The notes under the pieces: generated by a model
The model's database searches: none
Seen by the model: the letters and a program-made list of their open reading frames with translations, nothing else
Told to the model about the DNA's origin: nothing
Made by a program: the position numbers and the translations under genes
Source: Labia minor
Lineage: Eukaryota; Arthropoda; Insecta; Dermaptera; Spongiphoridae
Length of the DNA stretch: 64,000 nucleotides
Assembly: GCA_963082975.1 (NCBI GenBank)
Contig: OY720344.1
Span: 76,186,053-76,250,052 of the forward strand
Direction: 5' to 3'
Shown here: positions 15,386 through 41,193 of the stretch, one piece after another
How positions within the stretch are numbered: position 1 is the stretch's first letter
How the letters are laid out: the number at the start of each line of letters is the position of its first letter

Positions 15386-15822
15386 TTTTTACTATCTCGC
15401 CAGAGATAGTATTGCGATCACGAAAATGTTCGATGTCGAGATTTTGATGTTTTTATACGTTTTGAAGGTCCCCTGAGTAATTTTCACTAAGGTTGAGAAA
15501 AATGTCTGTCTGTCTCTCCTTCACAGAGAGAGAGTGAGTGTGTGTATGTAGACAAGATTACGCAAAAACGGTTTGAGCTAGAATCATGAAATTTGGTACA
15601 CGGTCATTATTCAAAATTAGTAGTTTTCTATCAACTTTTGAGAAATGTAGCTCAACCGGAAGAGGGTCATTATTTACCACGTTTTAATTTTTTTCCTCTA
15701 AACTGACCTTAAAAATAAAGATATATGCTTGATAGTTTTTCACATAATTCAAAATTGTATAAAACTGCAATTTATAGAATTTCAGCCTGATTGAATCGCT
15801 TAAAGTACCGGAATTAATTTTT

Positions 15823-15961
15823 ACTTTCCCGCATACTTCGTATAAGGGAAGTATTGGAATCGTCAAAAATTTCGACTTCGAGATTTTGATAGATCTTGAC
15901 GTTTTAGACATCCCTGAGTCGGAAAATACCATTTTTGGAATTATGTCTGTGTGTGTGTATG

Positions 15962-15992
<31 letters not shown>

Positions 15993-16924
15993 TGTCTGTA
16001 AACAAATTTACTCAAAAACTAATCAAGCTAGGACTTCGAAATTTGGTACACCGATATTATTCAAAGTTTGTAGATTTCTATCAAAATTTCGTCAAAATCG
16101 GTTAACCGGAAGTGGTACTTTACCTACAATGGTTGCGTTTACCTTTCAAGTAAAGTACCAGTTTGCTTCGAGATATTTGTTTCATATTTTGTATATAGAT
16201 TTAAAAATATGAAAAAAATTGAGATACCAAATTTCATCATGATCTGACTACCGGAAGTGACATTTTACCTATACAAATAGCGTTTCCTTTTTACCGACCG
16301 ACGATAGTAAGGGAGGTATTGTTTTCACACCAAATTTCATCTGTGGATATTTTTAGGTACATATCTCCACGAATCATGCATTTTCTTAACAGAAAAAAGT
16401 ATTTTTAGCATGATGTCTGTCCGTCCGTCCGCTGTGTGTCCGTAGAGATGTGTACAGCCTGAAAGCCTCAACGGATTTTGATGAAATTTGGTATATTTAC
16501 TTAATGCATCAGTATGATGAATGGATCAACTTTTGGTGCAAATCCGGAAACCGGAAGTGCTAGTATTGCCGATCAAATAGAGGAAGTGAAGGGTTATTTT
16601 CATATCAAATTTCACGTGAAGGCATATCTCCACGTGTTATGCACTTTGTATTAGTTTTATCCTCGAGAAAAATCATCTTCATTAGTTTTTTATTAATTTA
16701 AAATTATATGACGTCACCCCGCACTTCATGACGCACAGCCAGCCCTTATATAATATAAATAAAATAAAATTAAAAATATTTATATTATATCCATATCTGT
16801 TTTTTTTACATTTAAAATATCAGTTAACCGGAAGTAGCACTTTATTACATTCTAAATATTCATTCACAACTCTTTATACCTATTTATATGCGGGAAAGTC
16901 TAGGGGAGGACACTCCCGCTTATT
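15823..16924 (+). mobile_element. HINE-C, third Helentron-like family, nested in HINE-B
   Basis: It begins ACTTTCCCGCATA after a T-run and ends TATGCGGGAAAGT (16887-16899), the exact reverse complement. The hairpin GGGAG-GACA-CTCCC follows (about 16905-16918), then CTTATT. A (GTAT)n microsatellite lies at about 15950-15990. The same order of parts is found in HINE-A and HINE-B, with unrelated termini. It is itself interrupted by a HINE-A fragment at 16291-16810. This is the only copy of the family seen in the window. Confidence 0.85.
16291..16810 (+). mobile_element. HINE-A copy 2, 3'-truncated, nested in HINE-C
   Basis: It starts TTTTTACCGACCGACG and follows the family through the GTCC microsatellite, the ATGAAATTTGGTATATTTAC block and TATATGACGTCA. 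It stops around 16810, before the 3' subterminal motif and hairpin. HINE-C-like sequence (GGTTAACCGGAAGT type) resumes at about 16825. The loss of the 3' end may be a later deletion. Confidence 0.75.
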
Positions 16925-17115
16925 TAACACTGTAAATCACGCGCCACCACGTGACGTCATGCCATCAACAAAGAGCCTAACACGAGCTGGTATAATAAAT
17001 ATTATTTATTAATTTTAATTTATAATTTATAATTAATTAAAGTTAATTTAAATATAATATATGTAAATTAATCCAATTCAAATAGCGAGATTACCGAGTG
17101 GAGACACTCCAGATT

Positions 17116-19890
17116 TTTCATAGAAAGAAGAGGGGAAGAAAACTATATTAAAATAAAAAAAATAATCTAATAGTGTTATGTAAGGTAATAATGTTTTTCA
17201 ATCATCCATAAAATTAATTGAAACAATTCTCATTTATATACCTAGTATAAATAGGAATAAAATATATTTTTCTTTTTGTGGCACCCATTGGACTTGAAAG
17301 TTCTTATATACAACAACGATATTATTTCAAAAGTCCCTGATTCATACTACTTTATTTTAATTCTTTCATATGTAATTTTTTACAAATAAAAAATTAACCT
17401 TAACGGGTTTTTTCAAGTTACATTGGAACGGAATTGTACTTGCTACTTTAAAAATAAATATAAAACTATCTTATTCAAAAATATTAATATTCAAGCAGGT
17501 ACTTAGGGATCAATATAAAAAAAGCTAGGTATGAATACAGAAGTACTAATTAGAAAAATAGATTGCTAATTTATTATAGAAAGTAGTAAATACAGAATAT
17601 TATGGATATTAACGTTCTAAACATAAGTTATATTATAACATAACGAAAAATTATTTCCCTTTTAAAATAGTTATTCCTCTTGCTTATAATGCCAATTCCT
17701 TTTTATATTGAATAGAACGTAGCTTGTAAAAAAGTACACACTACTTTAAACAGAAAGGAAAAATAAACGGGTAAATTTCTTAAAATTATAACACACTCTT
17801 TCACTCTCTCCCTTGTGTGGAACATTGAGTTTGTTTTTTTCAAACCCTTAAAAGTATCTTTATCTGTTAGAAAAAGAGTTTTGCACTTTTGAAACGAGTA
17901 GATCGGTAAGCCCGTCTCCCGAACGAACCTCGTATATTCAACAAAAAGCGCGCAAGTGAACCTTTTTTTAGACATAGAATATTGAAAAAATATTAAAACC
18001 CTATTAAAGTAGACAATATATTTTAAATTCCATATAAAATATAACGCACTTTTTCAATATTATTTTTCTTCTATTTTCATCGTTTAAGAAGAAAATAAGT
18101 TTTTCTTTTCAATATTCATAGATCTCATCTCCATATATATAAAATATTATTTATAATAGTGGAATATTTTAGAAGTAATTATTTTTAAACAACTCACAAG
18201 GTAGAATTTGTACTTAATGTTATTCGTTAAACATTAAATAAACTTTTATATTAATTAGACAAATCAAATAAATGTTATCTAATGAATCTGTTCATGAACA
18301 TTCGAGTTCAGCAAAGCCATAGAGACGGATAGATAAATATATTTAGTAAATGTGAAATAAACTTTAGTAGAGTTGTTATAGGACTTCTTATAAATAAAAG
18401 TTAAAAATAGTTAAGAGTTTTATCTCCTTTGGGTAGTTGCTGATTTTAGTTTCATTTGTTACACGATTCATTAGTTTTTATTTTAGATTTTCTTGAATAA
18501 TTGTAAATTTATATCTAAGTATACACGAGTGATCAATATCTAGATCAAAATGTACCTCTTGCGTTGTTTGATTTAGTTTTCCATAATAATAATAACAACC
18601 TTTACAAAAAATGTTGTAAAATAAAAAAAAAATGTCACGGATAAAATCTCAAGTGTCCTCTTTGAAAATGTTGGTACGTCGTTAGTTAATTGACAGCACT
18701 CTTGTTAAATTGGTTACGATTGCTACTGAAAGGATTTGTTATCAATTATAATTTAGAAAAAATTTATTTCTATAAATGTTTAGTGACAAAATGTTTTCTT
18801 TTGATTTTATTAAAATAATCGAAAGAGCTGCAGACATGTTTAATTAAGATGCTATGATTCTTATTAATGGGAGAGTCACTTATAGATTTATAAAATTTTA
18901 TGCATCCCAACATTTGTTTCTTATATTTATTTATTTTCTTTTTTAATATATTTATTTTAATAAAATGTTAAATACTACTGGTACAGTGTCATTGGTGCTT
19001 TTATCTTACATACAATTTATTTTAATATTTTAAATTATATTATCAATTTTAGATTAATTTTAAATGACATCTGGTATAAATATTATATGCAAAAAATATC
19101 TCGCTTCTTTTTTGTATTTATTTATTTATTATATCAAATTGAAAAATATAATTGAATACATTTACAGGATAATGGTTGTGAATATATATATATTTAATCC
19201 AAAAAAAAATTGCTATATATTTAATTTCAATAAACAAGCGTGAAAAATTTATATGTATACATGCATACAAAAAATATTAAATTATATATAATAGTTTGAA
19301 ATTAGAGAGAAGATTGAAAAGGACATTTAATAATTTTCATTTTTTTTTATCATATATCAGTTATTTCACTCTAAAATTGATTATTATATAATCATTCGCG
19401 AATTATTTTAATAAATTTCAGGAAAGCCATTGTATTTTTATTTCTAATTTTCAAATAAACATTATTCTAATTCCATGAATCAAACAGAAATAATTCATAT
19501 TCTTATTTGTAATCTTAGTAATATATTTTTCATCGTTAGTGGTATATTATTAATTTTGTCAGTAAACATAAAGAATACGTTTAAAATTTTTATAAAAACA
19601 TAACATTAGTCATATGTTGAATAATTGAGTAAAATGTTAATCTACTCAATTTCAAAGAAGCTAATAAATATTTATTATTGGTAAGAAAGATTTTACAATA
19701 ACAAAAGTGAAATAACCAGGTGATATTAGAAAGAAAAATTCATGAAAAATTATTTTGAAATATATCAGTTAAATGAACCACGATAATTTAGATGTAAATT
19801 TTAAATTTTTTAAATACAAATATTATAAAAATATTACGTTATGAATGTTTTTTTATTTATCAAAATAAATCAAAAACATATATATACTTA
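17116..19890. other. AT-rich stretch, no supported gene
   Basis: No transposon ends were recognised. A minus-strand frame at 17703-17975 (90 codons) is somewhat richer in C/K/R/E codons than the background but carries no motif I know, and has no visible splice context. The rest is A/T-rich filler. Confidence 0.45.
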
Positions 19891-20532
19891 CTAGCTGCTC
19901 CGAGCGCCTTTGGCGCTCTCCATACCTAGACGGGGGCTCCGCCCCCTGTACCCCCCCCCCCGAGTGTCCCTATTCTGAGCTATAACCATCTAACTCCTAC
20001 CCTGTCCCATCTCTATAGTTTTTTATATATGTTTATTTATGCAGAAAAAATTAATTGATATAATTATTAATTTAATAAAATAAAATTTAATAATAAAATT
20101 TAATTTAATAAAATAAAATTATTTAATAAAATATTAAAATAATAAAAATTAATAAATTTGTAAAAAAAATATATAATACTTAAAGAAAAAAATGTGCCTT
20201 TGCAAGTTTCGAACTCAGGGTGCAAAGTCATAAGAAGACGCGCTAGCTCGCTCGGCCAGGAATCGCTTTTGTTTAGAAGCTTCTTATAAGGGTATATATA
20301 AGATTTCAAATTTTTGCCACCAGCGCCTCTATGAGCTAGTATGGTAACTAAACTATTTTTAATTAATTAGCATTTCCTGGACACACCTTACCAATTAGCG
20401 GTTTTCTAAAGGAAGTCTGACATGCCCTGAGACCTACTGAATATACATAAAAAAATTTCATAAGAATCGGTCAAGCCGTTTCGGAGGAGTATGATTTCAA
20501 AGTTTTGTGACACGAGAATTTTATATATAAGA
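19891..20532 (-). mobile_element. Complete non-autonomous Helitron (CTAG family), 642 bp
   Basis: On the minus strand the element begins TCTTATATATAAAATTCTCG and ends in the hairpin GAGCGCC-AAA-GGCGCTC, 7 nt, then CTAG. It lies precisely between A (19890) and T (20533). All of these are diagnostic Helitron features: 5' TC, a 3' hairpin about 11 nt before CTRR, and A^T insertion. A second hairpin (GGGGGC-GGA-GCCCCC) precedes the terminal one. Just upstream of the 3' end is a short LINE-derived stretch (GCTCAGAATAGGGACACT), and the centre carries a tRNA-like promoter region. There is no Rep/helicase, so it depends on a partner. Confidence 0.9.
20200..20262 (-). other. tRNA-like (SINE-type) segment inside the Helitron
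   Basis: Reading the minus strand, TGGCCGAGCGAG resembles an A box of the tRNA-Ser/Leu type, and GAGTTCGAAAC about 30 nt later resembles a B box. The spacing fits an internal RNA polymerase III promoter. No full cloverleaf can be drawn with confidence, so I read this as a SINE head or tRNA relic carried by the Helitron, not as a functional tRNA. Confidence 0.5.
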
Positions 20533-20536
20533 TATA

Positions 20537-21144
20537 CACCTATCCCCCGATTTACACGGTACTTGTTTTACACGTTTTCGCTTTTACACGGTTTTCCAAA
20601 TAAGTTTTTTTTTTGTTTTTATTGCACTCTACTAAATGCTACTGTGTACACATCTCATGGGGAATCCCGAGCTTATGTGCTGACTTGCTGCACATGCACA
20701 CTGTGTCTGTATTTCTTCGCATAAAATTAAAGTTTTATCTACGGAAAATTGTATTTGTTGAAAGTTTCACAGTTTCAGAAAGATTTAATTTTCCATATTC
20801 CAACCTTCGATTCCTAAAAAAAGAATGAGAGTAATTTCTGATAGTGATGAAGGATAATAAAACACCTTTGGTTTTAGTTTTTGTTCTTCTGTTTAATGTA
20901 TTGTAATTAAATAAAAAAAAACAGTGTTTCCGTAATATATTACATATTTTAACCTGTCAATGCATTTTATTTTTATTTCTGTGTACACCTAAAAATATTG
21001 AAAAAAATCACAACTGTTAAATAGCAAAATTATGCATTTTCTGCAAGCGTTTCGATTTACACGGTTTTGACTTGAAAATTTTCAATTTTCGATTTACACG
21101 TTTTTCTCAGGAACGTATCTACCGTGTAAATCGGGGGTTAGGTG
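20537..21144. mobile_element. Pogo/Tigger-like MITE, 608 bp
   Basis: The ends are inverted repeats of about 24 bp: CACCTATCCCCCGATTTACA on the left and, in reverse, CACCTAACCCCCGATTTACA on the right, both flanked by TA. The word GATTTACACG recurs several times just inside both ends, a subterminal repetition typical of Tigger elements. A 71-codon frame inside (20613-20828) has no recognisable transposase motif. The left end lies four bases from the 5' end of the neighbouring Helitron. Confidence 0.8.
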
Positions 21145-21385
21145 TATATTCTTAGATAATATTTCTGTTATTATGTGTAAAAATAAAAATTGAAATTTTA
21201 TTTAATATATCATCATTGTAAAGTATCACAATAAATAAATTATATTTATTTATTTATATAAAATTAAATAGTTACAAATAAAATTAAATATCAATAGATT
21301 TAAATACAAGCGAATGTAGGTCTTAGGTAAAGGAATTAATTAGCTTTTAATTTAACATTTAAATTATAAAAGTATTATATATGTT

Positions 21386-21426
<41 letters not shown>

Positions 21427-23184
21427 ATTTTCTAACTAAAACTAAAATTTGATAATTATGATTTGTTTTAAAATAAATATTTCATGTGTGTGTGTGGGTG
21501 GGTGTGTGTTATTATTTTATTTTTAACACACCTTTCAATACTAATCGTAAACATCTATTTATCTATTATATTTATATCATACCGAAAAATAACAGAATTA
21601 CATAATTATACGAATGTAATGCCTAGTCAATGACATTGAAGGACGTTGATAGATTTAAAAATAATAAATATAAAGGCAACCTTAAGATAAAGAAGAATAG
21701 ATTGGATGGTAATAATTCACGATAGGGGAACTTGTTGCTGGTACCAACATTTTTGGATTTAATTAATGAACGATATTAGTTCATTTAAAAAAAAAATCAT
21801 TCATATACCTATTTTAGTGTCATTTACACTCAAATGTCAATAACATGTTTTCATAATATGAATATAATAAGATACTCTTATTTATACTATTATTTTTTGA
21901 AACTTTTTTAATTTTAAAAGTAATTAATATTTACACTTTAGATAACAAAAAGTTATTAATTTTTTTTATCGTATATTAAAATTGGCCAAAGTTATTTTCT
22001 GGTTTGTTACAATTATAGAATTTATTAAACTTTATTTTTTTATTTTTTGGGTAGAGGACAGTATATTATTATATTAAATGAAAATGATCAAATTCATTTG
22101 ATATCTAGCAATTTAATAATATCCTTTCCATATCACAATTTCTATTAATCTGATATTGGATTTAAGTTGTTATCAACTACCAGTTTATATATATATATAT
22201 GTATAAAATTAATATTATTTATTTACTTACCAATCGATCAATTAAATAGTAATTAATAAAAATTACCTGAAACAAAAATAAAAATGATTAAAAGATGGTA
22301 ATTTTAATTACATCAATTATAATAAATAAATAAACGTAAGTGTATTGAATTAATGATTCATTTTTAGAAGTGAAAATATTAATCAAAACAAATTTATTAA
22401 CACTTTTAATTTGAAAATAGGAATAATTTTCTTTGTCTCTGTATTTTTTTTTCTTTGTTATTTTTTTTTGATTAATTTTTTATTTGAATAAAAAACTTTT
22501 TTCCAAGGGTCAGAACGTTCAATCAATGTTTAGTAAAACTGTAAATATTTTTTTGACAATCGAGTGCTCAGTAGTTAAACAAACATTAAAACAATATACA
22601 CTGATGAATTCTGTTGCCATGGTGTCCCAGTAAAATACTACGCAAATTAAACGTGTTCTCATTAAACAATCATTTACTTATCGCACATTGCAAATGATAT
22701 ATAAATGAAAGTATCGTTAATAAGGGATAGAAATCGATTTTAGTTATTTCATTCTAAGGATTTCTGAAATTTTTTACAGTGTATGTAAATGAACACGATA
22801 GCGTCATGAACTTGTTTATTCAAATGGATAAGTGTGTTTAAAATAAAAATAATTTCATAAAAATTAGAACTTAATAAATAATCTTTTGTAAATAATAATC
22901 TTAATCACTGGAATAGTAATTAATATACATTTGTACTGCTTTAATAACATCTGGTCAATCCAATATATACAAATAAAAAAAAATGCTTGTTTATTTCCTT
23001 TAAATTGGAAAAGCACCACCGATAGCATTTAATTAAAAACTCGTTAACTATTTGCCAGTGAACGATGTTCTGTATAGGACATTAATGTCAATTCATTTAA
23101 ATCGTTTAAATTCCAAACTAACCAATCGAAAACTAAAATATAGGTAATGCTATTCGTTAATTTTATTCCATTTTTATTTATTTA
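21145..23184. other. AT-rich stretch with simple repeats
   Basis: It contains a (TA)n run at about 21387-21416, a (GT/GGGT)n run near 21486-21509 and otherwise featureless A/T sequence. No coding or transposon-end signal is visible. Confidence 0.5.
21387..21416. repeat. (TA)n microsatellite
   Basis: About 15 TA units. Confidence 0.9.
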
Positions 23185-23294
23185 CTAGCTGCTCCGAGCG
23201 CCTTCGGCGCTCTCCACACCTAGACGGGGGCTCCGCCCCCTGTACCCCCCCGAGTGTCCCTATTCTGAGCTATAACCATCTAACTCCTACCCTG

Positions 23295-23830
23295 TCCCAT
23301 TTCTCTCACGTTCCTTCCTACAATGTCCTCCCTGTTCACAATTGGTCTTCCACACGGACGTTTTCCAATCGAACTCCCCACCAATATATTTTTCCTCTCC
23401 CATTCTAGCCATGTGCCCTGCCGAACCCAGCCTTCTCTATTTTATAACCTATATCTAGAGATGCATAGAGGTCATGCAATTCCTTGTTACGCAGTCTCCG
23501 CTATTCCCCGGTGTCCTCATCTTTCTTTGGCCCATAAATCTTGGGAAGAATCCTTTTCTCAAATACTTTGAATCTACTCTCATCTCCCAGGGTTATAGAC
23601 CATGCCTCCCACCCATATAATACAACAGAAAAAATAATTGTTTTATATATTTTAATTTTGATCCCCTTTGATAATAATTTCCCGATTGCAACCTCGATTT
23701 AAATTCTTTGCAAATATTATTCGCTCTGTTACTATTTATTTTGCATTATCACTATTAATTTAAAACCCCATCACTTTTCCTGCCTCGAAACCATTAATAC
23801 AAACAAACAATTTTAGCTAGCATAATGAGA
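23295..23830 (-). pseudogene. LINE reverse transcriptase C-terminal fragment carried by the Helitron
   Basis: Reading the minus strand, several frames give pieces of the same conserved tail: a YYMGG...MRVDSKYL-like region, then GSAGHMARMGEEKYIGGEF, then DWKTSVWKTNCE. Other copies at 31.6, 44.0 and 51.9 kb read RRLRWAGHVARMGEER. This is the C-terminal tail common in arthropod 'endonuclease-reverse transcriptase' LINE proteins. Frameshifts and stops are frequent. The fragment is in the same orientation as the Helitron and meets its terminal module at GGGACACT|CGGGGG, the same junction as in the 19891 copy. Confidence 0.75.
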
Positions 23831-23943
23831 TTAAAAAATAAAAAATATATAAACTTACCTGAAAATAATTAGATATTTATTTAATGAAATTAAATTTTTA
23901 AGTAAATAAATAAATAAAATCAAAATTCAAAATTAATCAAGTA

Positions 23944-24316
23944 ATAAGTTGACCTGTAGCCAGGTCTGAACCGACCGACGGTTTGAAATAAATTAATTTC
24001 CAGCTACAGAAACAATTTCAAATAATTTTAATATATCTATTAATGTAATAAAAAACAGATATAAATATAACATAAATATTTTTAATTTTATTTTATTTAT
24101 AATATATAGCTGAAGTAGCCGGCGTTGCCCGTGATTATAATAAGGAGGCTGTGACGTCATGAAGGGCTGGGTAATTTTAAATTATGAAAAACATAATGAA
24201 GATGATTTTTCCCGAGGATAAAACCAATACATTCGTGGTGATATGTAAAAAAATCTCCTCATGTGAAATTTGGTGTGAAAACAATACCTCCCTTACTATC
24301 GTCGGTCGGTAAAAAA
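23944..24316 (-). mobile_element. HINE-A copy 3, internally deleted
   Basis: Both termini are present: the hairpin side with GACCTGTAGCCAGGTC and ACCGACCGACGG, and the far side with ATCGTCGGTCGGT followed by A-runs. The microsatellite and the CCGGAAACCGGAAGT block are missing. A subfamily insert, GCTGAAGTAGCCGGCGTT (near 24110), is shared with the copy at 49906. One TGACGTCA remains near 24154. Confidence 0.85.
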
Positions 24317-25159
24317 GGCAATCGAAATGTTTTAAATTATCTAAAAAAAACAATTATTAATATAAAAATACAAATAAAATGATCAAAAAATAAATAAAAT
24401 TAAATTAAATAAATAAAACGTTTTAAATAGAAATTCAAACTATTTGATATTATGAAAAACAATTTTAAACAAATGTATTTAATTAAATTAATAAATTTAA
24501 AAAATATTAAATGATATTTAGCTTAAATATAAAAATTAAAATAAAAAGAAATTACTTAAAAAAATTAAAACTATAAAAATAATATTAAAATATATATAAA
24601 ATTACCTGAAAATAATTAGATATTTATTTGATAAAATTAATTAATTATCTTAAAAATTTATCCAAGTAATATCATCTATTTCTATTCGACACTGAGAAGG
24701 AAGGGATTCACAGCACAGATCATCCTTACAGTCACAGTCAGTAGAGAGTAAAAAAAATGAAGACCGCCGTTTTTTAAAATAATTAAATTATTTTATAGAT
24801 TATAAAATAAAAATTATTGTATTAACATTATAAAAATATTGAAATAAAAAATAATATTTAGTTTGATTTAATAAATAAAAATATTATAAACATTTTTAGT
24901 GAGAATTTCTCGGGGAGGTAGGGAGGTCAGATAAGCGACAACTTTTATTCCAAATGTTCGTCCTCCCTAGCTGTGACGTCATCAATAAGAAAATGTAAAG
25001 AAAAGGGCTGTTTTTAGGGTTTACCCGACAATTATTCGATTTTTTCTCGCCGGAAAAACCATCCTTGGACTTCAACGAACATTTTAAAAAAAGAATTGTC
25101 AAAATTGGTCCAGACGTTATTGAGTGATGCAATTACAAAAGTCATTTTTATTTATAAGA

Positions 25160-26875
25160 TTTCATAATTTTATTTTTTTTTTAACAAAGAATTAGAAATC
25201 TGGAGAAAAGCAAAAAGATAAACATTTGCAAATAAACGAAAGATGAAATCAATCAAGTATAGGAACGCAATTTTTTAATGAAAACATCAAAGAAAAGAAA
25301 AACAAATTAAAGAGTTGACGAAGAATTCAGACTTGTCAAGTTGGTTAACAAAACGCACTAGAATGTCACGAAATGATTTCCCGGAAATTGTAACTTATTG
25401 ACATTTCTATTTCAATTATATATAATAAATTTGCATCATTATTATAAATTAACCATGAAAATAGCAGAAGGTCCCCCTTAAACTTCCTCCAATATATATA
25501 TATATCTATTTATTTTCAGAATCTCATAAAATATACTATTCTTTTATAATTAAGTTTCAAAATTTTTTTTAACACGTTCTCGCCGGGTCTATAATTTGTC
25601 TATGATGGGACTAATCATTCATGTACCACCGCTGGTAGATGTCAGCGGAAACGTATTATTGACAGTTAATAGATAGTTTCACCAATATTTTTATTTATTA
25701 GAGAATTTATTTAAAGAATTTTTAAATTTTTGAACAATATGAGTACAGAACTTTCGCCTTCAAAATCAAAACTTTACCATTTAAGCAACAAATAGATATA
25801 TTTTCTAAAAATATGATTAAAAAATTTCAATTTAAAAAAAAAATATTTGTGAAATATCAATATTCATTGAATTAATTATTTTGTTTTATAGTATAATTAA
25901 TGTTTATAAATGTAATTATATAATAAATACTACATGACATAAATGAGAAAACAGTAATAGAAACTATCCATTTAAGAATCATTTGGATTGTTTCCAAAGA
26001 AAATAGGAAATATTCTCTCAATTCAAAGAATAATGTAATATGGATACCAATATTTAAAACTGCATTTAGATGTCTATATATTAAAAAAATAAAAATAATT
26101 CAATGATTTATTGATTATATATTTTATGGAATATTCAAAGAAATAACTCCAGATTTCATTTTAATATTTCATTTTTAATTGATAATTATTTTTTCTCATC
26201 TGTATGACTGGCTAGAGACGAACTTTCCTAATTGGAATATTTTATATTGGACGATTTTTTTGATCATTAAGTCAATATATATATATACGTATATATAATA
26301 TATAAACAATAAATTATGGCTATACTAAACTTACTTAAAAAAATGAAACTTATTCATGGTAATTTTGATTATTTTACTAGTTAATTTAAAATATTTTATG
26401 TATTTTTAATTATTTTTTAAAAATATTTATAAATAATTGTAATAACTAATAACATAATATATAATTAAAGTACTTGTACTTGTGTATTTTTATTTCTATA
26501 AAATCATTAAAATTATAATTCCTGTATGGGATAGTGAGAATTGTAACTTCTACCCAATAGTATCCAACATGAGACATACGCCCTATAGGGTAGCAATTTT
26601 TAAAAATTATGTATATGTAACATGGGGGGAGCATTTTAAGTTTTTAGAAGCTTTGGTTTTATCCAGATATATGTACACTTTATATAACTTTGAAGTAAAA
26701 TCTAAATAAAAATATATAAAATTATTTTTATAATTTCAAATTTATTAATTTTTAAAATAAATCTCGCATATAATTTCTTTCATAGCGCCAATATAACATT
26801 ATAATTGTTATTTATACTAAATACTATTATACTATGATTGTTTTTTCTTTCTTTCTTTTATGGAAATTTGAAAAT
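25160..26875. other. AT-rich stretch, nothing firmly recognised
   Basis: A slightly GC-richer patch at 25575-25660 contains CGTTCTCGCCGGGTC, which reminds me of piggyBac-like element ends, but no TTAA-flanked pair is visible. Short frames at 26446-26709 overlap on both strands and lack motifs. Confidence 0.4.
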
Positions 26876-27489
26876 TAAAATTAGCTGGAGTGTCTCCACT
26901 CGACTATCTCGCATTTGAATTAGATTAAATAACATAATATATTATGTTTAAATTAAATTTAATTAATTATAAATTATAAATTAATATCATTAAATAATAT
27001 TTATTAAACCAGCGCATGACTCTTTGTTGATGGCACCACGTCACGTGTTGGCGCGTGAGATTTGCAGTGTTAAAAAATTAATTCTGGTACTTTCAGCGAT
27101 TCAATCAAGCTGAAATTCTATATATAGCAGTTTTATACAATTTTTAATCATGTGAAAAATTATCAAACATATATCTTTATTATTACTGACCACTTTAGAG
27201 GAAAAAAAATCAAAACGTTGTAGGTAATTACCCTCTTCCGGTTGAGCTACATTTCTCAAAAGTTGATAGAAAACTACTAATTTTGAATAATGCCCATGTA
27301 CCAAATTTCATGATTCTAGCTCAAACCGTTTTTGCGTAATCTTGTCTACATACATACACACACACACACACATTTTTCTCAACCTTAGTGAAAATGATTC
27401 AGGAACCTTCAAAACGTATAAAAACATCAAAATATCAACATCGAAAATTTTCGTGATCGCAATACTATCTCTGGCGAGATAGTAAAAAA
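26876..27489 (-). mobile_element. HINE-B copy 3, near full length
   Basis: This is the best complete HINE-B. On the minus strand it starts TTTTTTACTATCTCGCC. The next parts in order are the GATCGCGAAAATTTTCGATG-type segment, a (GT)n microsatellite (27356-27373 on the plus strand as CA), the AATCATGAAATTTGGTAC block and the E-box region. It ends GCGAGATAGTCGAGTG, completing the hairpin, then CCAGCTAATTTT. The 5' motif ACTATCTCGC and the 3' motif GCGAGATAGT are exact reverse complements. The minus-strand open frames across it (27101-27304, 27308-27553) are not genes. Confidence 0.9.
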
Positions 27490-27499
27490 GACATTTTAA

Positions 27500-29164: not shown

Positions 29165-29312
29165 ATTTTTTGATGAAATGAATAGCCAATCAAATTCTTC
29201 AATTCCCAGTCACGTGGTCAAAATAGCCAATAAGTGAATAATTACACTGAAAAGATCCCTCCGTTTGGTAAGATCCCTCTTGCTTGTTGCTAGGGAACAA
29301 ACTGTTTTTGTC
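29165..29312 (+). promoter_or_regulatory. Candidate promoter: two CCAAT boxes, E-box, RFX-like X-box
   Basis: Within about 120 bp lie AGCCAATCA (about 29185), CACGTG (about 29213), AGCCAATAAG (about 29227) and GTTGCTAGGGAAC (about 29287). The last fits the imperfect-palindrome form of RFX-bound X-boxes. A repeated AAGATCCCTC also occurs twice (about 29253 and 29271). The cluster sits immediately upstream of the exon-like frame at 29351. Motif clusters can arise by chance, but this density in an AT-rich background is unusual. Confidence 0.4.
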
Positions 29313-29350
29313 ATTTAATAAATAGTAATCCTTTGCATTTTAAAATGTAA

Positions 29351-29550
29351 TTTTCACGATATGGCGATGAAAATAATGATTCTATTAATGAAATTATTAA
29401 AAAAAAAAATACACCGGAAAATACTTTATCAAATAAGAAATACATTTGGAAATTATTTATGGACTTTTGCATTACCAGAAAATATAAATTAGATGGACTT
29501 CGTACTGTTAATGAGCTTGCACTGATATTGAAAGATTGGGATCTATGTAA
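29351..29550 (+). pseudogene. Exon-like frame resembling a KIAA1958/Crypton-type N-terminal module
   Basis: An open frame beginning FSRYGDENNDSINEIIKK and continuing TLSNKKYIWKLFMDFC, then LRTVNELALILKDWDL, ends at a GTAAGT splice-donor consensus (29547-29552), after which it would stop. The pattern of KKY-x-W-K-x-F-x-D-W/F-C followed by ELA-x-x-L-K is typical of the N-terminal segment of KIAA1958-, QRICH1/ZMYM- and Crypton-derived proteins. No in-frame ATG exists: an in-frame TAA lies just upstream and the first codon reads TTT where a start would be expected. It is either a decayed copy or an exon whose acceptor I cannot see. The open frame on the opposite strand is a shadow. Confidence 0.45.
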
Positions 29551-29707
29551 GTAAAAACATTCTTGTATTTTAATAAATATAATATAACATTCTAACTGAA
29601 CATGCATTCGTAGACGACTACTAACAACTATTATTTATCGGGTTATATATAACTGGGTCGCCGAGTCACCGTTCAAATAATTTAAAAGAACATGAAATTA
29701 TCTCTCT

Positions 29708-29835
29708 CTCCTATATATATATAAAAAAAGGTTTTTGTCTTCAAAGAATTACATCCCAATATTCTTGCATATCTCAGCAATTATTTTTTTAAAATTTGAT
29801 ATGTATACATGTTGCCATTCAGCAGAGCAAAGAAT
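29708..29835 (+). mobile_element. Helitron family 2, 5' end fragment
   Basis: TCTCCTATATATATATAAAA followed by AAAGGTTTTTGTCT matches the 5' ends at 41078 (plus) and 61523 (minus). The ACATCCCAATATTCTTGCAT block that follows also matches the later part of those copies, so about 200 bp including the microsatellite are deleted here. No 3' end was found nearby. Confidence 0.6.
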
Positions 29836-31286
29836 ACAATACAAATAATGTTTATAATTTTTAAATTTTTATTTTTCTAATATTGGCCTTTTTAACTTAT
29901 TTAGCACACTGAAAACATTCACATTGCGACTTTTAATTTTTAAGATTATATGAATAAATAATTTTAATTTTGATCTCATAATTGGATTTTCACGTAAGTT
30001 TTCAATATGGGTGGACAATGTAGGAAGAGACCAAATGTTTTTAGTGTCAGGACTAGTGCAAAGTGTTCTTCAGAGCTTCTGAACCCAGTAAATCAACGAT
30101 TAGCCACCCATTCAACTCAAAATCTCAAGATAGACTCTTGGTCAAACCGACTAAGACGCAGAATTCCAAAAATTCCTTCCCAAAACATTTACTTTAAATT
30201 CAGGCTAGAAGGAGCGCCGAAATGTAAGACGTGAAAATAACCCGAAAATAACATCTCATAATAATACAAATTTTCACGGAAACCTAAAAGAACATATATT
30301 TATATATATATATCATAAAATAAATTATTTTCCCCTAGCTACAAGTATATTTTTACTATAAATTTATAATTTATAATTGTTTCTTATTTGTAAAAATAAC
30401 TTAAAAAATTCTGAAAAATATTTTGATATACCTTATTTCAGCATTAAGCGGTAATTGTTTATATTTATAATTATTATCATATGTTATTTATAATATCAAT
30501 ATATTGAATATTTTTAAATTAAATGACATTTAAACTTTTCTACTTTTTCTATCGAAGTTTTTATTTTAGTGATAAATTTCCCTTGAGAAAAGTTGCCTGT
30601 TTAATTTGACAACAACTGGATCTGATATATAAACCACCTTGAAAGGATTGGAAAAGAGCAGTGTGTATCACAAGATTAGACACGGGGGAGGAGGGGATTA
30701 AGGGTCTTTTTCATAGACTATCGGTTTGACCTTCATTTGTCAATGGATCTGGATTGGTAGAAATTTGCAATCTCGTTCATGAGGAATAAATTTCTAGTTA
30801 AATAATCCCAAATGTTAGACTAAATAAATGGTTCAGTAACGTTGTCTATTTACGTGATTCTCCGAAGACTTCCTCCCTCTTCCCGTTGCCGCCACTTTAG
30901 ATCCATTTAAAAGGATTTTCATTTCACTTTTTCTAAATTAAAAAAATAAAAAAATACTTTTTAATAAAGTAGATATATTATATTATAATCTTTCCACTCT
31001 AAATATATAACCGAAATAATAATTATTAAATGAAATGATAATTTTGAGGTAATTTTCATAATTTAATAAATTAATGAAGTTTGTATTATTATCAGAGTTC
31101 TAGCTTATTTGAATCTTTTATTTTATTAGTATTGGTCATCATTCATATACGATTAGTTTTTTGGGAGTGGAGAGGGGGAAAGAAGCCTCACGCTTAGAAG
31201 ATACCTACCCTCCCCCGGAATAATAAATAGATATTTATAAAGTGATAAAAGCAAAATTAGATTGAAATCACTAATACGGCTTTACA

Positions 31287-31330
<44 letters not shown>

Positions 31331-31594
31331 GTATATATATGTATATTTCTAATTTTCTAAAAATGTTGAGATCAATCATGATTAAATTTGATTTTAAAAG
31401 AAACAAGTAAATAAAATTAGGTGAAGTAAGTATTATTTTATTAATATAGTAAAATTCGTTATTTAAAAACAAAAAGTAATTAAATTATCCTACCTGAAAT
31501 GAAATTTAAAAGACCTTTCTTCCTGTTAATCTATTTATAAAATATTGTCTGCAAACATATTATGAACGTTTTTATTAATCGAAATCAACGTTTA
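29836..31594. other. AT-rich stretch, no supported gene
   Basis: A 75-codon frame at 30007-30234 (plus) is basic and Ser/Asn-rich, less AT-biased than its neighbours, but I recognise nothing in it. The region 30590-30910 is moderately complex, unique-looking DNA. A long (TA)n tract lies at 31292-31345. Confidence 0.45.
31292..31345. repeat. (TA)n microsatellite with TATG interruptions
   Basis: About 50 bp of TA units. The minus-strand 61-codon frame across it is a low-complexity artefact. Confidence 0.85.
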
Positions 31595-32247
31595 TAGCAG
31601 AAGTTTCAAAGTAAAGGGGCTTATCGCGTCAAAATTATTATCAAAAGGGATAAATATTAAAATACATAAAACAATTATTTTGTCGGTTGTATTATATGGG
31701 TGTTGCATGGTCAATGACCTTAGGAGACGAGAGTAGATTTAGAGTATTTGAGAATAAGATTCTTCGCAGCATTTATGGGCCAAAGAAAGATGGGGTAATC
31801 GGAGAATGGCGGAGACTGCATAACGAGGAATTGCATGACCTCTATGCATCTCCAGTTTTAGTTAGAATTATAAAATCGAGAAGGCTGCGATGGACAGGTC
31901 ACGTCGCTAGAATGGGAGAGGAAAGAATGACGAAAAATATAATGATGGGGAGACCGAGTGGGAAACGTCCGCTTGGAAGGTAGTGGGAAGGGACGTGAGA
32001 GAGATGGGAGAGGGTAGGGATTGGAGGGTTGTGGCTCAGAATAGGAATACTTGAAGAAGTGTGCTTGCTGGGGCCAAGAACTTTCGATTTATAATAATGG
32101 GGAGACCGAGTGGGAAACGTCCGCTTGGAAGGTAGTGGGAAGGGACGTGAGAGAGATGGGAGAGGGTAGGGATTGGAGGGTTGTGGCTCAGAATAGGAAT
32201 ACTTGAAGAAATGTGCTTGCTGGGGCCAAGAACTTTCGATTTATCGT
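31595..32247 (+). pseudogene. LINE 3' end with 152-bp tandem duplication
   Basis: From 31687 a 98-codon frame reads WSMTLGDESRFRVFENKILR, then IYGPKKDGVIGEWRRLHNEEL, and ends RRLRWTGHVARMGEERMTK. This is the C-terminal tail of a non-LTR reverse transcriptase protein; clades that carry this tail include RTE-like elements, but I cannot assign the clade. Upstream, 31595-31686 continues the same family in another frame. Downstream, about 152 bp (31941-32092) are repeated head-to-tail at 32093-32244, duplicating the coding end and 3' region. The 5' part is missing. A HINE-A copy begins 10 bp further on. Confidence 0.8.
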
Positions 32248-32256
32248 CTTGATGTG

Positions 32257-32880
32257 TTTTTACCGACCGACGATAGTAAGGGAGGTATTGTTTTCACACC
32301 AAATTTCACATGTGGAGATTTTTACATATCTCCACGAATCATGCATTTTCTAAACAGAAAAAAGTATTTTTAGCATGATGTCTGTCCGTCCGTCTGTCCG
32401 TCCGTCCGTATAGATGTGTACAGTCTGAACGGCTCAACCGATTTTGATGAAATTTGGTATATTTACTTAATGTATCAGTGGGATGAATTGATCAACTTTT
32501 GGTGCAATTCCGGAAACCGGAAGTGGTAGTAGTAGTAGAAAGGGTTATTTTCACACCAAAGGAGATTTTTTTATATATCACCACGAATCATGCACTTTGT
32601 ATTGGTTTTATCCTCGAGAAAAATCATATTTATTAGTTTTTTCTTGATTTAAAATTATATGACGTCATCCAGCCATTCATGGCGTCACAGCCTGGTCTTG
32701 CATATATATTATAAATAAAATAAAATTAAAAATGTTTATATTTATTATTTATGTATCCATATCTGTTTTTTATTACATTAATAGATATATTAAAATTATT
32801 TGAAATTTTTTCTGTAGCTGGAAATTAATTTATTTCAAACAGTCGGTCGGTTCGGACCTGGCCACAGGTCAACTTATTTT
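32257..32880 (+). mobile_element. HINE-A copy 4, near full length
   Basis: It runs from TTTTACCGACCGACG to CAGTCGGTCGGT (one mismatch to the expected reverse complement), then the hairpin GACCTG-GCCA-CAGGTC and AACTTATTT. The GTCC/GTCT microsatellite (about 32382-32408) is short. Of the two conserved TGACGTCA sites the second is mutated to TGGCGTCA, consistent with decay. Confidence 0.9.
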
Positions 32881-34762
32881 CTGGTTTAACTTTATCTAAC
32901 CCTGAAAACGAAAGATTGAATTTTATACAATTCTACACCACCTTTACCTTCCAGAGAATGCAAGGCTTTGAACACATAATAGAATTCGAATTGTTATTGA
33001 AACAATTTTAGAATAGATAAAATAAATACATAAACACATATACACGCACGAGCACTAATATCTTTCAAGGGAATAAATAAAAAGGGATTTCTCTATTTCA
33101 TTATTTGTTGATTATCTTGATATACCTGACCTTTGAAGTCATTTTTTTTAAAAATTATTTTATTTTCAGTATTAAATTTCTCTTTTTGTAGTTTGTTTAT
33201 AACAATAATACATTAGAAAATAATTATTATTTTAAGCCTCATGTGTTAGTCCTAGAATATGATTTTCTTTTTAAATATTTGTACTTCTAACTGTAAGCTT
33301 TAAATGAAATGATTTATTACATTTTTTTTAAGAAAACCGGAAGATAGTTCAATGAAATTTTTCTCTTGCGATATATTCTTTTATTTAATTTTAAAATAAC
33401 TTTTCATATATAAATAGACATTTTTTAAAAAAAAAACAACTTAATAATAGAGTTATAGATATAAGAAGTGAAAAAAACATATTATATCCAATACAGCATT
33501 TCTCGACCTTCAGGTATTTGTGGCCTAGTTTTCAAACATCAATTTCATGATGGTTTTAAAAAATTCTTTCATCGTGTGATTTACAATAGAGCAATAAGAA
33601 TATTTTTCAAATTAAACTATTTTACAATATTTTAAATATTTTACAATATTTGATATATAATATTTTTTTTTTTCAATTGTATTGAACTATGTCAAGATTC
33701 AACGTTTCAATACATTCATGATATAACAAAGTAGCAAGTGAACATACATGGTTGTCATATAAAATTAAAAAATTATATTAGTGAAAGAAAATATTATAAA
33801 ATTAATAAAAAAGTATTTAATGAGTATTTAGGTTTCTGTTTTTAAATTATTATGTCAATTCAAGAATTTTCCTAAATGCTAAATTCGATTGTAGTGTTGA
33901 ATCAAAACTGCAAGTGAACATATATGGTTCTCATATAAAATGTAAAATTAGAATAGTAAAAGATAATATTATTAAATTAATATAAATTTATATACTATAC
34001 CGTAAACAAATAATAAATATAATAAATATTATTACTATAAATAAGTTCACTTGATATTTTTTCCAAAAATTCAAAATCACACACAGACAAAAAATTTAAA
34101 AAGTATAAAAAATATAAAAACATTAATAAAAGTAATGATTTGTGTGTGAGTTAATTAATTTTTTTAAAATAATTTTAATATTTTCTCTTGGTACCACAAC
34201 TAATAAATACATATTTAATATATAGAATTTCCTATTAAGAACATTTAAGAATTTCATATATACTATATTGTACCAGAGAAACCTTTAAATTATTTTATGT
34301 TATTAAGCTTATATATTTATAGATGGTTTATTACATTTTAGACCATTTACTTCAATTAAAAGTCTTTGTTTGTAAGATCAATCAAGAGAAATTTGTCGGT
34401 GAAATATAAAAAAAATAAAAGACTAAGAATTTCAAATTGATTTTTTTATATTTTCATAATAAAATTAAGAAGATATTTTTCTTAACTTTTCTCTAAGTTA
34501 TTTTTTTCAAGATTTTATGAAAAATTGTTCATTTAGGTTTGAATAAACATTTCATTAAATGGATATTCATTAAAATCTCATATAATTAAATTAACCTTTA
34601 AAAAAAATGTTTTTTAAAATAAATAACTTATACTAATTTCTTCTTCTATAAGTAATTTGATAACTAATATAAGAAAAACAGAATAAGAAAATTCCCAGAA
34701 CGTTGAAAGTTCTAAAAAATACAATATTCAAGCCCATATTTCAAAAATTCTTGATGCAATGT
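32881..34762. other. AT-rich stretch, nothing recognised
   Basis: Homopolymer-rich A/T sequence. A ~35-bp word, GCAAGTGAACATA(C/T)ATGGTT with flanks, occurs at about 33733 and 33910, suggesting an old local duplication. Confidence 0.5.
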
Positions 34763-35519
34763 CAGTGGCGTACCTAGAACTTTTGCCGCCCGGGGCGATC
34801 TCCTTTGCCGCACTTTCTATTATAAGTCAATCAAATAGTGGTTTTTATAAATTAATACACATAAATAAATTATTAAGTTATTTAATCAATATTAATTAAT
34901 AAGCAGAGTAAATTTTTTTACACATATTTGTATGCACTCGTAAACATATTAATATAATATTTACTCTTCTAGCTTTCATACTAGAAAAATCGTGTATAAT
35001 GCTCTCAAAATTTATATTTATATTTTTTCCCCCGGCCCTGCTTTTCAAAAGAAAAATAGATGATTTAAAAAAATATTGGTATATCACTTCAAAGTAATCA
35101 TCTAATCATATAAACTTTTCAAAAGAAATGACATTTATAAACTGATATGAAAAAATTTTGGTTAGGAAAAATTGCCGAACAAAATCGTAAAGATGCGTTT
35201 ACGAATTCAACGAATTTTAATGAATACAATAAAATAAAATTATTATCCTGTTCTTGGAATTAGAATTCAAAATTTACACTAAAATGCATTTATATACACC
35301 GAGGAATAATATTCGAAATCATATAGTTAATCATAATTTATATAAATCAAATAGTAAACTTATAATAATCATAATAATCATTTATTATTCAAGAAAGAAA
35401 AAAAATAAATATGAAATGGTTGCTTTTTACAACTATAACTAAATTTAAAAAATGCCGCCCCAAGATAAGTGCCGCCCGGTGCGGACCGCACCCACCGCAC
35501 CCCCCTAGGTACGCCACTG
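34763..35519. mobile_element. hAT-type MITE, 757 bp, with perfect 8-bp target duplication
   Basis: The ends are inverted: CAGTGGCGTACCTAG on the left, and CCTAGGTACGCCACTG closing the right. The 8-bp sequence TGCAATGT flanks both sides (34755-34762 and 35520-35527). The CAGTG start and 8-bp duplication are typical of hAT elements. GCCGCCC(G/C) words lie just inside both ends. No transposase remains; the short frames at 34896-35087, 35254-35442 and 35378-35671 are not recognisable. The perfect duplication points to a comparatively recent insertion. Confidence 0.88.
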
Positions 35520-35527
35520 TGCAATGT

Positions 35528-36490
35528 TTGGTTAATATCTTCTTGATCAAAATTAGGCAAACTTAAATTTCTCCTATTATTGAAACAGAAAACAATAAAA
35601 AAGATTGGTAATTTTATTATTATTATTAATTTATTTTTTACATTTTCAAAATCAATTATGCTCCAATCCACATCCTGTTTATTAAATAAACAATTTTTAA
35701 TGAAACAATTGTTCTCTTATACTTGTAATATATTCTTGAGAATGAGTGTCTAAAATCACTCTTCCATCTTTCGTTTTTATTTATTTTTTCTAACTTAAGC
35801 TAATATTATATATTTATTATTTATGTTTACTTTTTCTTTGACTTAAATGCTGATTCATCTCGGAATTAAGTTATGTATCTACAAAAATGAAAACTTTTTG
35901 TGTACTTATTAAAAACATCTTTATTCATTTAATGGATGCACGCTTGATAAAGAGATCTAAATAAACATGAAGTGTATCATTTCAATACAATTTGCATATT
36001 ATAAATGCTAATGTTTTGTTGTTGTTTTTTCATTCTTATTATGTTTTTGTGGTAATAACATTGAAAGATTTTTATATTCGTCATATTAATATTTAAATAA
36101 AGTACCTATACGTATTTTATTTTCAATTTCAATTTTTCAATAAACATAATTTTAAGATTGTTAATTGAAATATATAAGATTATTTTAATCTCATCACAAT
36201 ACTTACTATATTAACTTTAAAAAACATCTATTTATTCTTTCCTTGGGAAACCTTTATCACATGTTGTAGATGTGACAATGAAATTTCAAGTTCAATTTAA
36301 AATGATATATATAATAATTTATAATTATACTTGATCAATGTTTACTTAAGTATTACTACTCAGAAACACGCACGATTCCCGAAAACAATCAAAATAATAC
36401 CATTAACCTAATTCAAGAAGACATTTATTCTTATTAGACTGAAAAATAAATAAGAAATAATTGATCATGTTTCCTATCTAGTATAGTATG

Positions 36491-36542
<52 letters not shown>

Positions 36543-36829
36543 TATATAGATTGATAGATAGATAGGGAATATAATATCAAATTGTAATTATTTTTTCTTT
36601 CGTTAACTTAATGAATATCTCTTAAATATTTTGAGTAATATACTTAGAAGGGATAATGAGAATTTTTTAAATAAATCATTAATTTATCTAATCTTTTTAT
36701 ATATATATTTTATATAAGTTTAATTAATTATTATATTTTAATTATATTATATTATATAAAATATATTATATTATATTTTAAATTTAAAAAAATTAAAAAA
36801 AATTATATTTTAAATAGGATCTAAAAAAT
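35528..36829. other. AT-rich stretch with a (TA)n tract
   Basis: No genes or transposon ends were recognised. A (TA)n tract of about 40 bp lies at 36494-36536, followed by (GATA)n at 36550-36565. Confidence 0.5.
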
Positions 36830-37286
36830 CTGGAGTGTCTCCACTCGACTATCTCGTAAATATGATTGGATTAACTAACACATATATTATATTTAAATTA
36901 AATTGAATGAATTAAATTATAAATTAAAATTAATAAATAATATTTATTAAATCAGCGCGTGTTTGGCTCTTTGTTGATGGCACCACGTCACGTGCTGCGC
37001 GTGATTGCCAGTTAACGTGTTAAAAAATTTAAAAAATTAATTCCGGTACTTTCAGTCATTCAATCAAGCTGAATTCTATATATAGCAGTTTTATACAATT
37101 TTTAATCATGTGAAAAACTATCAAACATATATCTTTATTTTTACGGTCAGTTTAGAGAATGAAAAATGAAAACCTGGTAGGTAATGGTCCTCTTCCAAAC
37201 GAGCTACATTTCTCAAAAGTTGATAGAAAACTACGAATTTTGAATAATGCCCGTGTACCAAATTTCTCTGGCGAGATAGTAAAAAT
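36830..37286 (-). mobile_element. HINE-B copy 4, lacking the microsatellite region
   Basis: Minus-strand orientation. The 3' hairpin side (TCTGGAGTG-TCTC-CACTCGAC) is at 36830-36850 and the 5' end TTTTTACTATCTCGCCAGAG closes it at 37286. The segment between the ATTTGGTAC block and the 5' motif is deleted. Its 3' 120 bp are the reverse complement of 38085-38213. Confidence 0.88.
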
Positions 37287-38082
37287 AATGATTAAATAAT
37301 TAATATGTTATAGAAAGTTTGTGCAAATCAATTTGGAAAAAATTTAAAAAATTATGTTTATATATATACATATATACATATATCATACATATATATATAC
37401 ATATATCAATATTTGATTTTAAGGTGAAAAAAATATTTTTTTTATTTTTCTTTTATTGATTTAATTTGGATATTTCAAGAAAATTTGAAAATAGTATTTA
37501 TTGAATGTTTATGACAAGATTCCAGTTAAGAATATAATCTTGATTAAATTAAAATTAATTTATTAAATAACCATTTGCATATTTATGAGGGAAGCTTCTA
37601 ATCATAATACATCTTTTAAAAAATATTTTCATCTCCCTTCTCAACTTAAGACGTATTTATTGAATTCAATACCTTGACATTTTTCATCAAAAGACCGTCT
37701 TGATCCAAAAGAGAAGAAATGGTATATATATCAAAATAGTGTTTTTTCTTTTTCTCTTATTGGAAGAATTGTTGCTTTTGAAACAAAAGTAACAATCCTT
37801 TTCATTTGATAAAGGACGCACAATACGCATCAGATTATTGAGACTTTAATGAAAAAATTAAGGTTAAAAAGAGGAATGAAAACAGAGTCGAAATATCATT
37901 CGCTTTCAGAAAACAAAGTGATTGTAATTTTATACAAATAATAATTAATTAGAAATTCTTTTTTTCAAAGTGAGTTATTTCTTTTAATTAATGATTTTAA
38001 AATTGAAGATGTGATCAAGTACATTTTTTGATTTTTGAAAATATTAATGTATATTAAATTATTAAATGATCTTTTTTGACAT
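37287..38082. other. Sequence between two inverted HINE-B 3' ends
   Basis: Unique-looking A/T-rich DNA with alternating TATATACATATA runs at 37363-37412. It is flanked on both sides by HINE-B 3' regions in opposite orientation. No coding signal is visible. Confidence 0.45.
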
Positions 38083-38213
38083 TTAATAAATATTATTTAT
38101 TAATTTTAATTTATAATTTAATTCATTCAATTTAATTTAAATATAATATACATATGTGTCAGTGAATCCAATCATATTTGCGAGATAGTCGAGTGGAGAC
38201 ACTCCAGCTTATT
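38083..38213 (+). mobile_element. HINE-B copy 5, 3' end only
   Basis: Only the AT-rich 3' section, GCGAGATAGT, the GAGTG-GAGA-CACTC hairpin and CCAGCTTATTT remain. It shares the variant CCAATCATATTTG with the copy at 36830, which other copies do not have, so these two are each other's closest relatives. Confidence 0.85.
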
Positions 38214-38805
38214 TATTTGACTGAAAATAAAATCAGTTATTATTTTTTAAATAATAAATTATATTTTTTTATATTAATTTAATATAAAATATTTCTAATG
38301 TATATCATATTATTTTATTAAATTATTATTTAAAGAAAAAATTAAATATTTTTTTATTCACTAATTAAAAATACAAAATTTATGAGATTTAATATTCCTT
38401 ATTTTCTTATTTATTACTTTAAAATTTTTTTGAACTTGATCATATGTGAACCATACCATGTTCATTAACTCGGGACTCTCACTGAAGCAACATTTGAAAA
38501 ACCTTTAGGTATCTATTGTAAAAATTGAAAAAAAAATGTAAATGTATTTATTGAAAGAAAAATCAATTCTAATTAGATATATTGTATTTGAACAATGAAC
38601 AAATATTAAGATCATAATTTAATAAAATAAATTCTCTAAATATTATAATTAAATTACTCAAACAATGAATTTCTTTATTTTATATATACAATATATATAT
38701 CTCCTGATAATTCAATTGGACAAATAATATATTATTTATCTCGATGTTAAGAAATCAAAAATGACTGGGAATATATACTTATAGATAGGGTGACCAAATG
38801 TCTCG
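38214..38805. other. AT-rich stretch
   Basis: No gene is visible. Just before the HINE-A start, ATAGGGTGACCAAATGTC (38785-38802) resembles a transposon end that also occurs at 48929. Confidence 0.45.
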
Positions 38806-39440
38806 TTTTTACCGACCGACGATAGTAAGGGAGGTATTGTTTTCAGACCAAATTTCACATGTGGAGATTTTTACATATCTCCACGAATCATGCATTTTCT
38901 AAACAGAAAAAAGTATTTTTAGCATGATGTCTGTCCGTCCGTCTGTCCGTCCGTATAGATGTGTACAGCCTGAACGGCTCAACCGATTTTGATGAAATTT
39001 GGTATATTTACTTAATGCATCAGTGGGATGAATTGATCAACTTTTGGTGCAATTCCGGAAACCGGAAGTGGTAGTATTAGCGATCGACGATAGGAAGGAA
39101 AGGGTTATTTTCACACCAAAGGAGATTTTTTTATAGATCACCATGAATCATGCACTTTGTATTGGTTTTATCCTCGAGAAAAATCATATTTATTAGTTTT
39201 TTCTTGATTTAAAATTATATGACGTCATCCAGCCATTCATGACGTCACAGCCTGGTCTTGTGTATATATATTATAAATAAAATAAAATTAAAAATGTTTA
39301 TATTTATTATTTATGTATCCATATCTGTTTTTTATTACATTAATAGATATATGAAAATTATTTGAAATTGTTTCTGTAGCTGGAAATTAATTTATTTCAA
39401 ACCGTCGGTCGGTTCGGACCTGGCCACAGGTCAACTTATT
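38806..39440 (+). mobile_element. HINE-A copy 5, full length (reference copy)
   Basis: All family parts are intact. They are, in order: the T-run with ACCGACCGACG (38811); two blocks ending TTTCACATGTGGAG and ATGCATTTTCTAAACAG; the GTCC/GTCT microsatellite (38930-38953); CCGATTTTGATGAAATTTGG; CCGGAAACCGGAAGT; two TGACGTCA octamers (about 39220 and 39240); CGTCGGTCGGT; the hairpin GACCTGGCCACAGGTC; and AACTTATT. It has no coding capacity. Length is about 635 bp. Confidence 0.92.
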
Positions 39441-41077: not shown

Positions 41078-41193
41078 TCTTCTATATATATAAAAAAAGG
41101 TTTTTGTCTGCACATTGCTCAGAATTTAAAAATTTTTGCATATCTTCGCGTTTCATGACCTCTAGAATCCAAAAGTGACTTTAGAATTTTTCA

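Follow-up and report, generated by a model that had tools for sequence, protein, structure and literature searches.

The 64,000-nucleotide stretch of the Labia minor genome analysed here (the window; assembly GCA_963082975.1, contig OY720344.1, positions 76,186,053 to 76,250,052 of the forward strand) has a G+C content of 25.7%. It holds three sets of short repeated elements, HINE-A, HINE-B and HINE-C (A, B and C below), on both strands: seven copies of A, seven copies of B together with one fragment, and a single C. Very probably each set is a family of short, non-autonomous Helentrons, that is, HINEs of the DINE-1-like kind. An initial annotation had placed them between 15386 and 39440. This extent is too narrow, as copies run from about 7364 to 51127 and the B fragment lies at 60868-61105.

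The elements share one order of parts. A T-run is followed directly by a 5' motif (11 bases long in A, 10 in B, 13 in C), then by a microsatellite, a core, the reverse complement of the 5' motif, a hairpin and a T-rich terminus. The sequence bears out the initial description of the three motif pairs and hairpins, of the microsatellites and core, and of the order in which they stand. An element is asymmetric at its ends: on the 5' side the motif abuts the T-run, while on the 3' side its partner lies 24-25 nucleotides inside, with the hairpin beyond it. Each of the 13 preserved 5' ends is preceded by T5 (nine ends) or T6 (four ends), and the 3' ends pass into two or more T's. The microsatellite is GTCY-rich in A, mostly (TG)n in B and (TATG)n in C.

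Two parts of the initial annotation hold for some copies and fail for others. The motif partners, said to be exact reverse complements, are so in four of six A copies, in one of the five B copies with both ends, and in C; the remaining two-ended copies carry mismatches. The terminus, said to be CTTATT-like, is CTTATT itself in five of six A copies (these end in AACTTATT, A1 in AACTTTTT), in C, and in one of seven B copies, where the other termini are CTAATT (two), ATTTTT (three) and ATTGTT (one). The hairpin sequence is intact in C, in six of seven B copies and in five of six A copies, the loop being altered in A3. Folding one copy per family gave a 3' end in C whose energy was equalled by 1 of 200 shuffles; in the best fold of this end it is the last bases that pair with the 3' motif, in place of the stem first proposed. 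In B, a competing stem is present beside the proposed hairpin. At the other end, B and C carry an inverted repeat made of the 5' motif and adjacent bases, a feature missed at first, whose folding energy was equalled by 0 of 200 shuffles in B and by 1 of 200 in C.

A chance origin of these copies can be rejected. Motif A, allowing one mismatch, matches the window 13 times against 0.05 expected, always within the elements; motif B, at the same stringency, matches 12 times against 0.9 expected, ten times within elements and twice elsewhere. Further, the window was scanned without giving any motif, for TTTT and a ten-base word whose reverse complement follows at a distance of 250-1700 bases, together with a hairpin and TT. 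This blueprint scan, whose limits were chosen after the elements had been seen, returned eight places, six in A, one in B and one in C, and nothing else, and no place at all in 100 dinucleotide shuffles. It thus recovered eight of the twelve two-ended copies, and missed four B copies whose motif pairs are imperfect. Motif C, allowing two mismatches, is matched only by its own two occurrences against 0.97 expected, and is not significant alone; C is significant through the combined blueprint and an empty site described below. The 13-base core word, allowing two mismatches, has 30 matches against 11.9 expected.

Six of the seven A copies have both ends. A1 (7364-8041, minus strand) has about ten extra bases beside its 3' motif and an expanded (GTCY)n; A3 (23944-24315, minus) has lost its core through an internal deletion; A4 (32257-32876, plus) adjoins a 152-base tandem duplication; A5 (38806-39438, plus) served as the example in the initial annotation. 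A6 (49043-49674, minus) lies some 230 bases from A7 (49905-51127, minus), in the same orientation. A7 contains internal tandem copies (periods 282 and 142), in which its microsatellite and core recur. The seventh copy, A2 (16288-16815, plus), lies within C and is missing its 3' end; its right edge, at 16815-16823, was placed by eye. Pairs among A1, A4, A5 and A6 are 98.2-98.7% identical, and pairs with A2, A3 or A7 are 89.5-96.8% identical.

The most complete B copy is B3 (26878-27488, minus), the only two-ended B with an exact motif pair. B4 (36824-37285, minus), B6 (44653-45142, minus) and B7 (46424-46872, minus) also have both ends, the microsatellite region being deleted in B4 and the motif and hairpin decayed in B6. 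B1 (9640-10037, plus) is missing its 5' end, so that its left edge is uncertain, and B5 (38084-38213, plus) is the 3' part of an element, with the terminus CTTATT. B2 (15386-17120, plus) is split by the insertion of C. The fragment at 60868-61105 (plus) has a core and no ends; its bases 60951-61105 are 92% like B2, and its earlier part was read by eye. Pairs of B copies are 90.1-98.2% identical. The identities of both families took in 13 of the 16 pieces, leaving out B2, C and the fragment, and the family alignments were made from six of seven A and four of seven B copies, A7, B1, B2 and B5 not being included.

The only C in the window (15818-16924, plus) sits in a T-run of B2 and is itself split by A2. 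B2 was therefore present first, C was inserted into it, and A2 was then inserted into C. This nested set provides a natural empty site together with an order of insertion. The site of C reads AATTAA followed by T6 in all five uninserted B copies that retain it (B1, B3, B4, B6, B7). In B2 it reads AATTAA, T5, C ending in CTTA, then TTT and AACACTG. The gain on insertion therefore consists of T's alone, two of them. All five agree with the left flank of C to its last base; to the right, the match resumes within the first bases in B1 and B3, a pair 98% alike.

The initial annotation had expected boundaries at the T-run and at a CTTATT end, with no target-site duplication. At C in B2 the boundaries do fall there; on duplication, the two gained T's are ambiguous. 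If C is taken to run from ACTTTC to CTTA, the change from T6 to T5 plus TTT fits a TT duplication, and the elements might then be MITE-like (miniature inverted-repeat transposable elements), with subterminal inverted repeats, moved by cut-and-paste. The same ambiguity is discussed for DINE-1 (PMC2374699). Such an origin is nonetheless improbable. The asymmetry of the ends, with the 3' partner 24-25 nucleotides inside and a hairpin after it, speaks against it, as does the fact that no scanned open reading frame (ORF) overlapping a copy matched a transposase family in Pfam.

As to the flanks of the A copies, no match between copies appears among the matches listed, save in AT-rich stretches and in the sequence separating A6 from A7; matches of at least 250 bases at 99.9% identity or more (self matches) were hidden in this comparison. 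On the two sides of A3, 55 bases match at 92.7%, away from the junctions.

The three families had been presented as unrelated in sequence. For B and C this is wrong. B3 and C are 71.1% identical over 280 positions (score 125, against a maximum of 37 in 200 shuffles), and B2 and C 75.2% identical over 125 positions (score 87, shuffle maximum 31). From the 3' motif to the terminus, under strict scoring with shuffles, B5 and B3 score 38 and 33 against C, values reached by 0 of 2000 shuffles. By these alignments, B and C are close relatives. An earlier comparison of the last 60 bases, in which A5-C gave 36 of 42 and B5-C 42 of 53 aligned positions, used gap costs low enough to make A look as good against B or C as B against C, and is withdrawn.

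For A the evidence lies chiefly in the core, which speaks against calling A unrelated. The pattern GAAATTTGGTA, 46-64 bases, ACCGGAAG has twelve matches in the window (eight in A, three in B, one in C). All twelve are exactly 75 nucleotides long, and no match was obtained in 100 shuffles. Within the middle 56 positions of the core, that is, with the letters used in the search excluded, A and B agree at 26, A and C at 27, and B and C at 39. Agreement as good was reached by 17, 4 and 0, respectively, of 10,000 letter shuffles. In full alignment, A5 and C score 36, against a shuffle maximum of 34 in 200 shuffles. Thus, A has different ends, and its core is probably homologous to those of B and C; A is probably their more distant relative.

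The reading of all three families as Helentrons of the DINE-1-like kind is well supported by their anatomy and by the one empty site, that of C in B2. Several observations weigh against it. Aligned in full, A5 falls within the shuffles against B3 and B2, its scores being reached by 18 and 10 of 200, respectively; its 3' end scores only 8 to 9 against B5, B3 or C, which 1361 to 1953 of 2000 shuffles reach. In the folded A copy, the 5' end folds no better than expected by chance (80 of 200 shuffles equal it), and at the 3' end the hairpins of A and B surpass shuffles only mildly (15 and 20 of 200 do as well). C is known from a single copy, and the two T's gained at its site could be a TT duplication. 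To the right of T6, B7, B4 and B6 differ, and the match resumes 12 to 64 bases on. Lastly, no Rep, helicase or endonuclease partner that would link the families to Helentrons was found among the 54 window ORFs scanned (see below).

The first two of these results also favor the view that three families, unrelated as the initial annotation worded it, converged on one layout: A and B do not align significantly in full, and at the 3' end A resembles neither B nor C. Against this stand the homology of B and C, the fixed length of the core and the weak match of A with C. Convergence is very improbable, and with B-C homology and a core common to all three, the notion of three unrelated families is rejected.

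The comparison of B with C offers one further detail. Within its first ten bases the 5' motif differs by two substitutions, each with a mirrored counterpart in the 3' motif, and a change, with one base lost, is also seen in the arm of the 5' inverted repeat. Such mirrored changes would fit selection on end-to-end complementarity, a doubtful proposition drawn from the single B-C comparison. Were it true, the complementarity would mean either pairing of the two ends in a single strand or one end templating the other in rolling-circle copying, and new end sets, hence new families, would arise through changes made in step in all copies of a motif.

Comparison with known systems begins with DINE-1/INE-1 of Drosophila. 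According to PMC2374699, its features are subterminal inverted repeats, a partial inverted repeat by the 5' one, a GTCY-rich microsatellite, a core, variable central repeats, TT insertion and a 3' hairpin with a species-dependent stem. The elements of the window resemble it in their subterminal inverted repeats, conserved core, 3' hairpin, T-rich insertion sites and lack of a significant ORF. The GTCY-rich microsatellite is present in A only; the partial inverted repeat, as judged from the folding results above, in B and C, with the A copy no better than chance. The internal tandem copies of A7 resemble the variable central repeats. The motifs of DINE-1, at 13 base pairs, have sequences other than those found here, and its core, of about 90 base pairs, is likened to the 75-nucleotide core of the window by description only.

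The second comparison is with the HINEs of the mite Metaseiulus occidentalis and the Helentrons of flies and mosquitoes. PMC4067079 describes a mite genome with seven families and 21 subfamilies, and reports empty sites and variation in the number of T's. The likeness extends to several families with different subterminal repeats per genome, T-rich targets and a 3' palindrome. Empty sites there show no modification of the target; at the one empty site here nothing beyond T's is gained, two of them. There are differences: in that text, the distance from 3' motif to end is 38-60 base pairs, against 24-25 here; the mite HINEs are without the inverted repeat and the core, both of which B and C have; and autonomous partners encoding Rep, helicase and endonuclease are reported there, whereas none is seen in this window. 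The features of DINE-1 and of the HINEs that match those of the window elements support the Helentron reading.

The lepidopteran element Hel-2/MITE01 (PMC4344730) is similar in its 5' inverted repeat, its subterminal inverted repeat, the tetranucleotide microsatellite that follows the latter, and its 3' hairpin. Its ends, 5'-TC and 3'-CTRR with A/T flanks, differ from the T-run and the CTTATT-like terminus found here. The same ends define the canonical Helitron (Helitron1; 5'-TC, 3'-CTRR, insertion between A and T), which is rejected as an identity for these elements: here, they begin with a T-run and AC and end in a CTTATT-like sequence.

How many families should be counted? Members of one family, under the rule given in PMC4067079, share at least 11 identical bases in their subterminal inverted repeats. 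Since no 11 such bases are common between A, B and C, these count as separate families, although the motif of B is itself only ten bases long. The initial annotation went further and concluded that several Helentron lineages run in parallel in this genome. Three end sets do fit this, but they could go with several autonomous partners or with one. If a single autonomous Helentron mobilised all three families, the differences in the ends would be drift within its tolerance. This is possible, if on balance unlikely; it is compatible with the families being HINEs, and competes with the step to parallel lineages alone. The motifs of B and C, which agree at eight of ten positions, their similar 3' ends, and a core common to A, B and C point toward it; the motif and 3' end of A, which resemble neither B nor C, and the separation of the three under the 11-base rule point away.

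Returning to the Helentron reading, these non-coding elements are most likely moved in trans by a Rep-helicase-endonuclease, as Helentron work would lead one to expect (PMC4067079, PMC2374699 and PMC5148889). On this reading they carry nothing but end signals: a T-rich 5' end with its subterminal motif, the reverse complement of that motif toward the other end, then the hairpin and a T-rich terminus. The enzyme and the rolling-circle step, as well as the part each signal plays, are inferred from these parallels. An autonomous Helentron elsewhere in the genome would supply the enzyme, which would nick the 5' T-run; rolling-circle copying of the strand would follow, presumably halting near the 3' hairpin, and the copy would be inserted into a T-run.

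No Rep, helicase or endonuclease was found in the 54 window ORFs of at least 75 amino acids scanned against Pfam (E 0.01), in agreement with the first report of no autonomous element here. A complexity filter had kept 54 of 55 ORFs of this length, all of which were scanned, and 189 of 239 of at least 50 amino acids; the ORFs shorter than 75 amino acids were left out of the scan. The Pfam matches obtained were a Mos1-type helix-turn-helix domain and others that fall short of the curated cut-offs: HTH_32, RVT_1, two zinc fingers and TMEM192.

Both the layout and the coexistence of several families in a genome have been published before (PMC2374699, PMC4067079). A, B and C are three families added to this known superfamily, here in an AT-rich genome. 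A core of fixed length in families with different ends hints at a role for the core.

Searches for relatives covered two collections, viral_contigs and genome_contigs, which hold viruses and prokaryotes, so that absence there is no evidence for other genomes. No relative from another genome was found in them. A 20-mer of the core has no match in viral_contigs; a 17-mer has 36, none with CCGGAAG or a microsatellite nearby, and these look like coding sequence. The two-part core has two matches in viral_contigs and five in genome_contigs, none with the spacing seen in the window; these are probably chance hits to coding or bacterial DNA. The 3'-terminal sequence of A gave no match in these collections, and the core letters with "transposable element" returned nothing in a full-text literature search.

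The window also holds other repeats and ORFs. A fourth repeat, at 41101-41480 (plus) and about 61310-61510 (minus), is 91% identical between its copies over 175 nucleotides; no Helentron-like ends were recognised in these two window copies. One of them has a (TGTC)n microsatellite, and a stretch AACCGATTTCTTTGAAATT recalls the core. The Mos1-type (mariner) transposase helix-turn-helix (HTH_48, E 1.3e-18) is in an ORF at 51523-51840 (minus); the sequence at 48014-48238 (plus), where Pfam found nothing, we take to be mariner-like. The RVT_1 match, weak and below its cut-off, lies at 55862-56095 (plus), within what are presumably the remains of a non-LTR (long terminal repeat) retrotransposon at 55862-57166 (plus). 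A 269-residue ORF at 63193-63999 (plus), which reaches the end of the window, has weak matches to the zinc fingers zf-BED and Spin-doc, both below cut-off; we assume that it is perhaps a hAT-type transposase. Near-perfect tandem duplications occur at 31938-32244 (152 nucleotides) and at 43642-44056 (207 nucleotides).

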